A stretch of 35,348 nt of DNA, taken from positions 1 to 35,348 of the forward strand of contig NZ_JHEH01000029.1 of NCBI RefSeq assembly GCF_000715505.1, written 5' to 3'. This DNA comes from Thioclava dalianensis (GTDB taxonomy: Bacteria; Pseudomonadota; Alphaproteobacteria; Rhodobacterales; Rhodobacteraceae). Every line of letters starts with the position of its first letter. The stretch's first letter is position 1. The notes beneath the pieces are model-generated. The model was not told where the DNA came from, searched no databases, and saw only the letters and a list, made by a program, of their open reading frames with translations. Below are positions 18,709 to 22,414 of this stretch, in pieces. Position numbers and translations under genes: made by a program.

Positions 18709-19074
18709 ATGACTGCCAGCCCCGACGAGCCGCTTGAAGGCGCGCCGCTGATCAAACCCTCAAGCACCGATCACCCGCTTTATGATCCCGTGGTCGATGC
18801 GTGCCGCACCGTCTATGACCCGGAAATTCCGGTCAATATCTATGATCTGGGCCTGATCTACACGATTGAGATCACGCCTGAGAACGACGCCAAAGTGATC
18901 ATGACCCTCACCGCGCCGGGCTGCCCGGTCGCAGGCGAAATGCCCGGCTGGGTGCATGATGCGGTGGCCTCGGTGGGCGGGCTGCGCGATGTCGATGTCG
19001 AGATGACCTTTGATCCGCAATGGGGCATGGACATGATGTCGGACGAGGCGCGTCTGGAACTGGGCTTCATGTAA
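18709..19074 (+). CDS. DUF59 / MIP18-family Fe-S assembly protein (SufT/PaaD-like)
   Basis: A 121-residue cytoplasmic protein with a short variable N-terminus and the DUF59 core. VVDACRTVYDPEIPVNIYDL carries the invariant DPE (37-39) and DLGL, and the motif TAPGCP (68-73) holds the conserved Cys72. The C-terminal FDPQWGMDMMSDEARLELG is typical. Members act in iron-sulfur cluster maturation (SufT, MIP18) or in assembly of phenylacetyl-CoA oxygenase (PaaD). Without paa genes nearby the general Fe-S role is likelier. It stands alone, with its own putative promoter, about 3 kb from an A-type Fe-S carrier gene. Confidence 0.88.
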   Translation: MTASPDEPLEGAPLIKPSSTDHPLYDPVVDACRTVYDPEIPVNIYDLGLIYTIEITPENDAKVIMTLTAPGCPVAGEMPGWVHDAVASVGGLRDVDVEMTFDPQWGMDMMSDEARLELGFM

Positions 19075-19079
19075 ACCCT

Positions 19080-19284
19080 GTGCGCCGGGGGGTGTCGCAG
19101 ACGGCTCCCGGTGCGCTGCCTGCTTCTGGCGATTGGGCAAGCCGGCAGCCCTCCCAAGGCGTTCCGCGCGCGTTGCGATGCCGCTCACGTCACATGCGTT
19201 GAAGATCAACCCCTTGAGGGGTTTGCGCGGATGTATGTCTTCGATCCCTTCGGCAACCGGATCGAACTCATGGAGCGGCTCTGA
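19080..19284 (+). pseudogene. Remnant of a VOC-family gene (frameshifted, internally deleted)
   Basis: The frame ending at the TGA of 19282-19284 reads EDQPLEGFARMYVFDPFGNR then IELMERL, a typical C-terminus of a glyoxalase-like VOC protein. About 60-100 bases upstream, a different frame reads LGKPAALPRRS, resembling the KPAALAARGG segment found much earlier in the same family. The N-terminus and the middle (metal-binding half) are missing, and no start with a ribosome-binding site serves this frame. I infer a decayed gene. It is not a copy of the VOC gene at 18093, whose sequence differs. Confidence 0.6.
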
Positions 19285-20572: not shown

Positions 20573-20593
20573 GGCTGAGCACTTTCGCAACGG

Positions 20594-20622
20594 AAAATGC
20601 AGGCTTTTTAGCCTGCATTTTT
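20594..20622 (+). terminator. Rho-independent terminator of the alkene reductase gene
   Basis: AAAATGCAGGC (20594-20604) and GCCTGCATTTT (20611-20621) form a perfect 11-bp stem around a TTTTTA loop, with a T-run. The stem is at the same time the first copy of the tandem GCAGG-N8-CCTGC dyads. Confidence 0.85.
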
Positions 20623-20642
20623 CATATCGCAGGTAAAAATGC

Positions 20643-20672
20643 TTGCATACCTTATATAGCAGGCATTATAAC
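20643..20672 (+). promoter_or_regulatory. Candidate promoter of the SatD-like gene (possibly leaderless)
   Basis: TTGCAT (20643-20648) and TATAAC (20667-20672) are 18 bp apart. Transcription would then begin close to 20679, the A of the ATG, and no Shine-Dalgarno sequence is seen. The second and third dyads overlap the two boxes. Confidence 0.45.
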
Positions 20673-20678
20673 CTGCAT

Positions 20679-21284
20679 ATGAGCCTGACCTGTGTTCTCA
20701 CCGGCGATCTTGTCGCCTCATCGCGCCTCACGGGCGCGGATCTCGCCAATGCGCTGGAGCGGATCGAGCATGCCTTCACCACGCTCCGCCCCGCAGGCGC
20801 GCAGTGGCTCTTCGCGCGCAATCGTGGCGATGGCTGGCAGATCGCGATGGATACCCCCCCGCTACAGGCGCGGCTGGCGCTGCTGATCCGCGCCGAGCTG
20901 CGCAGCCTTGGGGCTGAGTACGAAACGCGGATCGCGATTGCGCAAGGCCGCGCCACGATCCCTGAGAGCGGCGATCTCAACAGCGCGCTTGGTCCGGCAT
21001 TCACGGCCTCGGGGCAATTGCTCGACACGCTCGAAGGCCCGCGCATCGCCCATGCCGAGCGCGGCGCTTTGGGGGCGGCACTGCGGCTGCTCGATCACCT
21101 CTCGGAGGGCTGGACCCCAGCGCAGGCGCGTGCGATGGCACCGATGTTGCACCCGGACCCGCCCACCCAGACGGCGGCGGCGCGCGCCATCGGCATCACC
21201 CGCCAAAGCCTTGCGCAGGCGCTTGGCGGGGCCGCCCATGACGCCATCATCGAGGCGCTTGCGATGATCGAGGCGATCCCATGA
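20679..21284 (+). CDS. SatD-like protein: cyclase-fold-like domain plus helix-turn-helix
   Basis: A 201-residue cytoplasmic protein. LTGDLVASSRL (8-18), RNRGDGWQIAM (48-58), YETRIAIAQG (81-90) and GPAFTASGQLLDTLEG (105-120) occur in the order and spacing of SatD-family proteins. They are reminiscent of the GD, RIGIxxG and GxxxNxAxRL elements of class III nucleotide cyclases, although the usual two metal aspartates are not obvious. Residues ~163-185 (TQTAAARAIGITRQSLAQAL) look like a helix-turn-helix. I recognise SatD from its pairing with DUF3307; the biochemical function is unknown. The ATG at 20679 lies inside the third tandem repeat. The stop overlaps the DUF3307 start (ATGA), so the two are co-translated. 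Confidence 0.7.
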   Translation: MSLTCVLTGDLVASSRLTGADLANALERIEHAFTTLRPAGAQWLFARNRGDGWQIAMDTPPLQARLALLIRAELRSLGAEYETRIAIAQGRATIPESGDLNSALGPAFTASGQLLDTLEGPRIAHAERGALGAALRLLDHLSEGWTPAQARAMAPMLHPDPPTQTAAARAIGITRQSLAQALGGAAHDAIIEALAMIEAIP

Positions 21285-22018
21285 CCGAGACCTTCACCCT
21301 GCTGATCTGCGCCCATCTTCTGACCGATTTCGCGTTTCAGAGCAATGGGATGGCGCAGGACAAGGCGCGGCGCAGGCCCGCGGCGCTGGCCGCACATCTG
21401 GCGATCCTTGCCGCGCTGAGCGCGCTGGTGCTGGCGCAGCTGTCACGCGAAGGACTGATCGCGCTGGCGCTGGTGGTGATCGCCCATCTGGTGATCGATC
21501 TGGCCAAGAGCTTCGCGCGCCCCACCCTCACCGCCTTCGTGCTCGATCAGACAGCGCATCTGGCCGCGACCGTCGCGATTGCAGCCCTGTTTCCGACCCT
21601 CTGGGCGCAGTCGTTCTGGGCGGGGCAGGTTTGGCTGCCCGGCGCACTCACGCTGATTGCGGGCGCTGTGCTCACGGTGCGCGCGGGCGGCTTTGCGGTG
21701 GGCCTGCTGATGGCGCGCTTTGGCGCCGATGCCCCGCCCGAGGGGCTGCCCGAAGGGGGCCGCCTGATCGGTCAACTCGAACGCGGCGTGATCTTTTTGC
21801 TGGTGCTGGCAGGCCAACCCTCGGCCATCGGCTTTTTGATCGCGGCCAAGTCGATCCTGCGCTTCGAGGCGGTCTCGAAAGGCGGCGCGAACCCGAAATC
21901 GGAATATGTGATCATCGGCACTCTGGCCTCTTTCGGATGGGCGCTGGCCGCAACTTATGCCACGCAGGCGCTGCTGAACGCACTTCCCCCCCTTGGAATC
22001 CTGCCCGCGCCAAACTAG
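21281..22018 (+). CDS. DUF3307 polytopic membrane protein
   Basis: A 245-residue inner-membrane protein with about six hydrophobic helices (near 1-20, 38-53, 58-76, 90-108, 117-145 and 165-185, plus a C-terminal helix near 207-232). Polar residues sit inside or beside helices in a family-like pattern: HLLTDFAFQ (12-20), HLVIDLAKS (69-77), DQTAHL (89-94), and a later ERG...AAKSILRF...EYVIIGTLASF block. The His/Asp pairs could bind metal or form an intramembrane active site; that is inference. It overlaps the SatD-like gene by four bases. No function is established to my knowledge. Confidence 0.75.
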   Translation: MTETFTLLICAHLLTDFAFQSNGMAQDKARRRPAALAAHLAILAALSALVLAQLSREGLIALALVVIAHLVIDLAKSFARPTLTAFVLDQTAHLAATVAIAALFPTLWAQSFWAGQVWLPGALTLIAGAVLTVRAGGFAVGLLMARFGADAPPEGLPEGGRLIGQLERGVIFLLVLAGQPSAIGFLIAAKSILRFEAVSKGGANPKSEYVIIGTLASFGWALAATYATQALLNALPPLGILPAPN

Positions 22019-22042: not shown

Positions 22043-22414
22043 ATGTTCAACGTACCCGGACAAGACCCTGTCACCCTCACCGATGCCGCCGTGGCCCATA
22101 TCGCCAAGCTGATGGCGCGTGAAGACGCCGCCGGTTTCCGCATTGGCGTCAAGAAGGGCGGCTGCGCGGGCATGGAATACACGATGGAGGTCGCAGCCGA
22201 GGCGGGTCCGATGGATATCGTCGTCGAGAAGGGCGAGGCCCGCGTGCTGATCGCGCCGATGGCGCAGATGTTTATGCTGGGCACCGAAATAGACTATGAG
22301 ACCGGCCTTCTGGAATCGGGCTTCAAGTTCCGCAATCCCAATGTGGTGGATGCCTGCGGCTGCGGAGAATCGATCAAATTCGCAGATATGGACGCCGCCG
22401 ACACCCAAGCGTGA
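22043..22414 (+). CDS. A-type iron-sulfur carrier protein (IscA/SufA/ErpA family)
   Basis: A 123-residue HesB-type protein that carries Fe-S clusters to apo-enzymes. The three ligand cysteines are Cys41 in KKGGCAGMEY and Cys105 and Cys107 in DACGCGES, the canonical C-x(n)-CxC pattern. The region RVLIAPMAQMFMLGTEIDYETGLLESGFKFRNPN is characteristic of the fold. AAGGAG precedes the ATG. It follows the DUF3307 gene by 24 bases and may share its transcript, but there is no clear functional link. SufA versus IscA/ErpA cannot be settled from this sequence alone. Confidence 0.92.
   Translation: MFNVPGQDPVTLTDAAVAHIAKLMAREDAAGFRIGVKKGGCAGMEYTMEVAAEAGPMDIVVEKGEARVLIAPMAQMFMLGTEIDYETGLLESGFKFRNPNVVDACGCGESIKFADMDAADTQA

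Follow-up and report, generated by a model that had tools for sequence, protein, structure and literature searches.

A conserved, phased array of palindromes as the probable autoregulatory operator of a SatD-like gene in Thioclava dalianensis

The SatD family of proteins (PF16264) takes its name from the secretion and acid tolerance protein D of Streptococcus mutans. Neither SatD nor DUF3307, the family of the protein encoded beside it at the locus described here, has a known molecular role in the literature that we searched, where both terms are scarcely mentioned; the parts of that literature that were available hold no description of SatD as a regulator or of the array reported below, and the term 'SatD family' itself appears in the available part of one paper (PMC10326533). 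In Streptococcus pyogenes, in which satD is carried by 178 of 249 genomes, it alone among the accessory genes falls, according to the available portion of a second paper, into the top quarter by essentiality (PMC11323703). A gene that is essential when present yet dispensable as a gene is what would be expected of a repressor or antitoxin guarding a harmful partner; this inference is ours and is not drawn in the available portion of that paper.

The SatD-like gene of T. dalianensis and the DUF3307 gene behind it resemble toxin–antitoxin and other repressor-guarded modules in their regulator-first order, in the 4-bp overlap of the two frames, in the palindromes at their promoter and in the spread of such pairs on plasmids. 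The anatomy that we required for this comparison, namely an overlapping two-gene operon with palindromes over the promoter, is present, although the operator function of the palindromes is inferred, the regulator differs from those of toxin–antitoxin modules in having a cyclase-like domain, and there are no data on toxicity of the DUF3307 protein or on its neutralisation. With class III adenylyl and guanylyl cyclases the SatD-like protein shares a predicted fold and two metal aspartates, but it differs from them in a variable asparagine position and a fused helix-turn-helix. Pycsar systems consist of a pyrimidine cyclase and a membrane effector. The pair likewise places a cyclase-fold protein beside a membrane protein, and on a Sphingomonas insulae plasmid a gene annotated as a Pycsar system effector adjoins a SatD-type/DUF3307 pair (L176, 2763–2973); the SatD-like protein differs in its helix-turn-helix, in a catalytic residue that seems to have been lost and in the lack of a PADLOC match. 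When ten proteins were compared with PADLOC, only helix-turn-helix resemblance was found, in two of them (best E 8.8e-5, L181), and no model matched the cyclase-like or membrane parts of any of the ten; a known defence system was accordingly rejected as an identity for the pair.

The stretch of DNA that was analysed (the window) comprises 35,348 nt of contig NZ_JHEH01000029.1 (GCF_000715505.1), read on the forward strand. Within it the SatD-like gene (20679–21284, + strand) encodes 201 residues, and its frame begins at ATG 20679 and reads MSLTCVLTGD, matching the conserved start of its relatives. The overlapping gene for the DUF3307 membrane protein (21281–22018, + strand) matches PF11750 with E 9.3e-22 and 77.8 bits against a cut-off of 23; the structural model of its product was poor (pLDDT 52.5). 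A DUF3307 relative follows the SatD-like gene at all 82 loci with long flanks. Ahead of the pair, at the end of a suf operon, lies a DUF59 gene (18709–19074, + strand) that we take to be sufT-like, and 24 bases after the DUF3307 gene lies a sufA/iscA-type gene (22043–22414, + strand), which matches PF01521 and which matches sufA_proteo below the cut-off of that model. Relatives of these two genes flank the pair upstream at 72 and downstream at 78 of the 82 loci, respectively. Twenty sufT loci lack the pair in their flank; sufA lies at most 321 bp away at 14 of these, other genes occupy a gap of 1.1–1.3 kb at four, and sufA was not found in the flank at two. Comparison of sufT loci with and without it thus suggests that the SatD–DUF3307 pair is optionally inserted into the suf operon in this family. 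The sufT–sufA junction (L184–L211; 19074–22043 in the window) seems to take varied inserts, including little or nothing, the SatD–DUF3307 pair, an old-yellow-enzyme-like gene (L205, and ahead of the pair in the window) and other genes (L197, L200 and L202). A short frame at 19111–19284, between sufT and the old-yellow-enzyme-like gene, ends FDPFGNRIELMERL and resembles what we take to be the remnant of a glyoxalase-type (VOC) gene.

Just upstream of the SatD-like gene lie three dyads of the form GCAGG-N8-C(C/T)TGC, all given here on the + strand: GCAGG-ctttttag-CCTGC (20599–20616), GCAGG-taaaaatg-CTTGC (20629–20646) and GCAGG-cattataa-CCTGC (20659–20676). As the first-pass annotation of this DNA had claimed, each dyad stands at the same offset, 5, of a repeat unit (20594, 20624 and 20654), and the dyad starts follow one another at an exact period of 30 bp. 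The accompanying claim that the dyads share one face of the DNA is only approximately right, because 30 bp corresponds to 2.86 turns at 10.5 bp per turn, and the distance is mostly 29 or 30 bp across the family and 28–29 bp in distant relatives. With at most one mismatch allowed, the pattern has nine matches in the window against 3.46 expected (s.d. 1.75), a number reached by none of 100 dinucleotide-preserving shuffles; dyads 1 and 3 alone match it perfectly. In an array scan of 440 window tiles that was blind to the identity of the half-site, the SatD-like array ranked first with a score of 14, followed by one tile at 9 (half-site GCGCC) and others at 7 or below.

The two downstream dyads coincide with promoter-like sequences. 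The right arm of dyad 2 contains the TTG of a candidate −35 box (TTGCAT, 20643–20648, + strand), and 18 bp after that box a candidate −10 box (TATAAC, 20667–20672, + strand) lies inside dyad 3. An overlap of these dyads with both a promoter and the start codon had been proposed; the promoter-like boxes are indeed there, but the ATG begins two bases beyond the end of dyad 3. A simple consensus scan called no promoter at the array region. At the 100 homologous loci with arrays that are described below, TAT occurs inside the last dyad at 55, inside the penultimate dyad at 10 and inside the first at 12, whereas the penultimate dyad has TTG in its right arm at 89 and, as the reverse complement, in its left arm at 65; a possible start codon lies 20 or 21 nt downstream of the first base of the last dyad at 55. 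The asymmetry of dyad 2, with CTTGC in place of CCTGC, would be accounted for by retention of the TTG of the −35 box. The same right arm is found in dyad 2 at six of the seven loci of the GCAGG class (L006, L007 and L036–L039); the seventh (L153), which has two scored dyads and belongs to another lineage, does not fit the pattern. Judging from the sequence, we infer that transcription would start at about 20679, near the A of the ATG, and would yield a leaderless mRNA.

The N-terminal two thirds of the SatD-like protein are predicted to adopt a class III cyclase-like fold. The best of five AlphaFold2 models, for which seven sequences were used, had a pLDDT of 84.7 and a pTM of 0.85 (model means 60.5 to 84.7), and in this model the helix-turn-helix that had been called likely for the gene product is found at the C-terminus, with a recognition helix at about residues 175–183. 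In a Foldseek search of the PDB at E ≤ 0.001, all 25 matches were class III cyclases (Rv1264, Ma1120, CyaC and others), with E values of 1.9e-4 to 9e-4, a probability of 1.00 and TM scores of 0.43–0.51 by query length, which satisfied our criterion for this fold as far as a predicted model can. A profile of 31 relatives also matched Ma1120 (HMMER, E 0.001) with both metal aspartates aligned. These metal-binding residues, D10 and D51, are each present in 130 of 130 homologues, D10 partly by selection since a GD motif was required for entry into the set. The catalytic asparagine, in contrast, did not meet its criterion: position 109, a column chosen by eye with an asparagine motif that we presume to be the correct one, is V in 43, T in 40 and E in 16 of the 130 proteins. 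At the position of the arginine, 68 of the 130 have R. As far as sequences can tell, the catalytic asparagine seems to have been lost, and cyclase activity of the SatD-like protein is improbable; a cyclase-like fold that keeps both metal aspartates without the asparagine would be expected to bind a nucleotide without cyclase activity, which remains an inference. No Guanylate_cyc match was found with Pfam in the T. dalianensis genome, and a cyclase of its own was rejected at that level.

The relationship to SatD is distant. The window protein has no match to the Pfam SatD model (PF16264) at E ≤ 1 and does not meet the curated cut-off; the model finds a match in the same genome only elsewhere (C4), below the cut-off, and it matches one of 31 scanned relatives (E 0.0028). 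Profile–profile comparison with hhalign, on the other hand, aligned our A2 profile with three SatD-type proteins (A3, among them that of L157, which is below the Pfam cut-off) at a probability of 99.6 over 187 columns, and with five SatD-type proteins (A4) at 98.8 over 185 columns, and our criterion of homology to SatD over both domains was met. A DUF3307 neighbour is, moreover, common at plasmid SatD-type loci. The label 'SatD-like' is therefore kept here in the sense of distant homology, without a Pfam match.

A single-sequence search detected a SatD-like protein in 66 of 295 genomes of the family, and a profile search did so in 97 of 390 of the order, seven of the latter being weak partial matches. 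From the loci that were fetched we assembled 130 different proteins, counting identical ones once; L042 (in which no SatD-type frame was seen) and L078 (partial) were left out, and L055, L117, L126 and L150 were dropped for lack of the TGD motif. Over the 160 bases that precede the conserved TGD codon we searched for dyads of any half-site with a spacer of 8 and a period of 28–31 bp, using a threshold score of 8. The first-pass annotation had asked that the repeats be sought upstream of homologous genes, and there they are: phased arrays precede 100 of the 130 homologues. The threshold was reached by two of 130 pieces of the same coding sequences and by none of 130 mononucleotide-shuffled upstream pieces. 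Within the 28–31 bp allowed, the distance from dyad to dyad is 29 bp in 104 cases, 30 bp in 54, 28 bp in 14 and 31 bp in two. The half-sites at the 100 loci are GCAAG (45), TCAAG (15), GCAAC (10), GCACC (8), GCAGG (7), GAAAG (4), GCAAA (3), GCAGC (2) and six singletons. No array above threshold was found for the remaining 30 homologues, of which 20 have another helix (TKQT, TQQS/T, RSRQM-like or SQQ) and 10 the ordinary one. Two groups without arrays, one comprising L043, L109, L112, L115, L120, L129, L131 and L132 and the other L051, L123, L135, L140–L142, L146 and L148, make up part of the genus with code g294, and g56, and have the recognition helices TKQT, SQQG, TQQS/T and RSRQM-like.

From lineage to lineage, changes in the half-site go along with changes in the SatD-like protein's C-terminal helix-turn-helix. 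For base 1, residue 175 has the highest mutual information of all columns, both in the full set (0.66; next 0.54) and among 73 representatives of less than 60% identity (0.66; next 0.56), and division by entropy leaves it in front in the full set (0.49; next 0.19). Arg175 goes with G1, and Pro, Thr, Ala, Lys or Gln with T or A, at 98 of 99 loci, the exception being L098 (His). That the best column for base 1 falls at the start of the predicted recognition helix (175–183) speaks for a direct contact. At base 5, Lys180 goes with C at 97 of 98 loci (exception L114, Arg) and Lys173 does nearly as well (96 of 98); Lys180 is favoured, because L097 and L110, which combine Lys173 with Gln180, keep GCAAG. 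By mutual information over entropy, base 5 is ranked first with residue 84, outside the helix (0.55), ahead of residues 173 (0.37) and 180 (0.28), behaviour that would be expected of a clade marker. No helix residue is outstanding in the raw ranking for base 2, and neither base 2 nor base 4 points to one helix residue in particular.

How many times the two sides have changed together is harder to establish. The tree that we built from residues 5–150 is weak, with good support for 18 of its 96 inner branches. Three loci were left out of the tree test as ties: L122 at base 1, where Pro175 accompanies a GCAAG dyad and a TCAAG dyad, and L075 and L076 at base 5. On this tree base 1 switched independently about four times and base 5 once; of the supported independent pairs two of two agree, and the best tree offers four pairs. 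With so few independent switches and a tree so weakly resolved, a sign test cannot reach 0.05.

Arrays of the same design also precede more distant SatD-type genes. Pfam SatD was found in 4 of 299 genomes of the phylum (three above the cut-off); the A2 profile gave matches in 6 of 385 genomes of the class, three of them from the organism's own family and three partial. Among plasmid records, the protein of L157 matched 16 and that of L155 matched six, whereas neither the window protein nor that of L156 had a match; the SatD of L157 had no match among phage records. The 15 distant loci comprise four from genomes and 11 opened from the 22 matching plasmid records, and a DUF3307 gene is annotated beside the SatD-type gene at 8 of the 11 plasmid loci (L172–L177, L180 and L181). 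With spacers of 6–10 and periods of 27–31 bp allowed, 12 of the 15 upstream pieces scored at least 18 of 20 and nine at least 19, compared with 6 and 2, respectively, of 98 other pieces of the same loci. When the spacer was fixed at 8, eight of the 15 beat all 100 shuffles; L178, L181 and L172 stood weakly above theirs (4, 2 and 3 of 100 as good), and L156 and L174 were not outstanding (43 and 24 of 100 as good). No array was found at L175 or L176, the loci of Pseudomonas fragi and Sphingomonas insulae, even on a second look at other stretches. In Vibrio lentus the sequence TTAGCC-N6-GGCTAA occurs three times, 28 bp apart, and clear arrays are also present in Enterobacter kobei, Pseudoalteromonas, Sphingomonas parapaucimobilis, Segatella copri (Bacteroidota) and the archaeon Halorientalis; the array is weaker in Agrobacterium pAt and weak in Salinivibrio. 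Across these loci, from Gammaproteobacteria, Bacteroidota, an archaeon and others, the half-sites differ while the architecture stays constant, with a period of 28–29 bp. By eye, the region upstream of the Halorientalis satD (L180, 1020–1185) holds four GTTCG...CGAAC palindromes, apparently as two pairs at 29 bp, the last of which ends just before the ATG. SatD-type and DUF3307 genes are carried even by the 3.77-kb E. coli plasmid pEC34A, which has five annotated features (L181, 1156–2845).

We consider it likely, with considerable confidence, that the array serves the SatD-like gene's own promoter as its operator, with the SatD-like protein as the repressor; binding, contacts, repression, cooperativity, leaderless start and nucleotide sensing are all inferred. 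The covariation of half-site and helix-turn-helix makes the SatD-like protein the likely binder and so points to autoregulation; the autorepression suggested in the first pass is supported to that extent, its sign being inferred and binding data being absent. According to this model, SatD-like dimers would bind each palindrome through the C-terminal helix-turn-helix, with Arg175 reading the outer G and residue 180 reading base 5. The spacing of 28–30 bp would line up two to four dimers, which would occlude the −35 box at dyad 2 and the −10 box at dyad 3 and thereby shut off a leaderless SatD–DUF3307 operon, possibly with the sufA gene behind it. The N-terminal cyclase-like domain would most likely bind a nucleotide that sets repression.

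Alternatively, the SatD-like protein might activate its own promoter. We think this improbable, although it is not excluded: the array extends upstream of the −35 box and no data show the sign of regulation, but the −35-like and −10-like boxes fall within the last two dyads, a position that is usual for repressor sites.

Similarly improbable is that another regulator, such as an Fe-S or iron regulator of the suf operon, binds the array and that the SatD-like gene is only its target. The position of the pair between sufT-like and sufA-like genes invites this explanation, but the half-site changes with the SatD-like helix, and similar arrays precede plasmid SatD-type genes (one is archaeal) for which the gene tables show no suf gene up to 1.2 kb away; L171 lacks such a table. 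Nor was a second array of this motif with AT-rich spacers seen in the T. dalianensis genome (4.18 Mb, 98 contigs): a search for GCARG-N8-CYTGC followed by GCARG after 9–14 bases gave nine matches, of which four are the SatD-like array itself and five, known by sequence only, have mostly GC-rich spacers. A second operon under the same operator was also sought in this genome and rejected, as the three single-pattern sites inspected all lie inside open frames, one of them apparently within what we take to be glmU.

Read as RNA, dyad 1 forms a 14-bp stem with a 4-nt loop (20592–20623; −21.9 kcal/mol, z −8.6), with T at the end of the 3′ arm; the other two dyads likewise fold more stably than shuffled sequence (z −2.5 for dyad 2 and −3.5 for dyad 3). 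That the dyads act as RNA hairpins, in a terminator or leader, and not as DNA operators is nonetheless very hard to credit, because any palindrome folds as RNA, because hairpins would leave unexplained the phasing, the covariation with the helix of a protein and the promoter-like boxes located within dyads 2 and 3, and because a terminator scan called no terminator at dyad 1, although dyad 1 may have a double role and its hairpin might additionally terminate transcripts arriving from upstream.

Autorepression through the array remains the reading we prefer: the SatD-like protein most likely represses its own operon, whereas its roles as guard of an effector and as nucleotide sensor are inferred only. 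More speculatively, and as a possibility that we rate as doubtful, SatD proteins might constitute a new class of transcription factor, with a nucleotide-sensing cyclase-fold domain joined to a helix-turn-helix, that in bacteria and archaea silences a harmful DUF3307 effector through phased operators; a change in a nucleotide signal, upon stress or phage infection, would then release the effector, and the pair would be an unrecognised module akin to toxin–antitoxin or defence systems. If true, a guarded effector would explain why satD alone among the accessory genes of S. pyogenes reaches the top quarter of essentiality, and the array at least suggests a simple reason for that unexplained observation. 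For the SatD family as a whole, the array provides a concrete and testable function, that of an autoregulator, and supplies a natural code that relates a base of the operator to the recognition helix.
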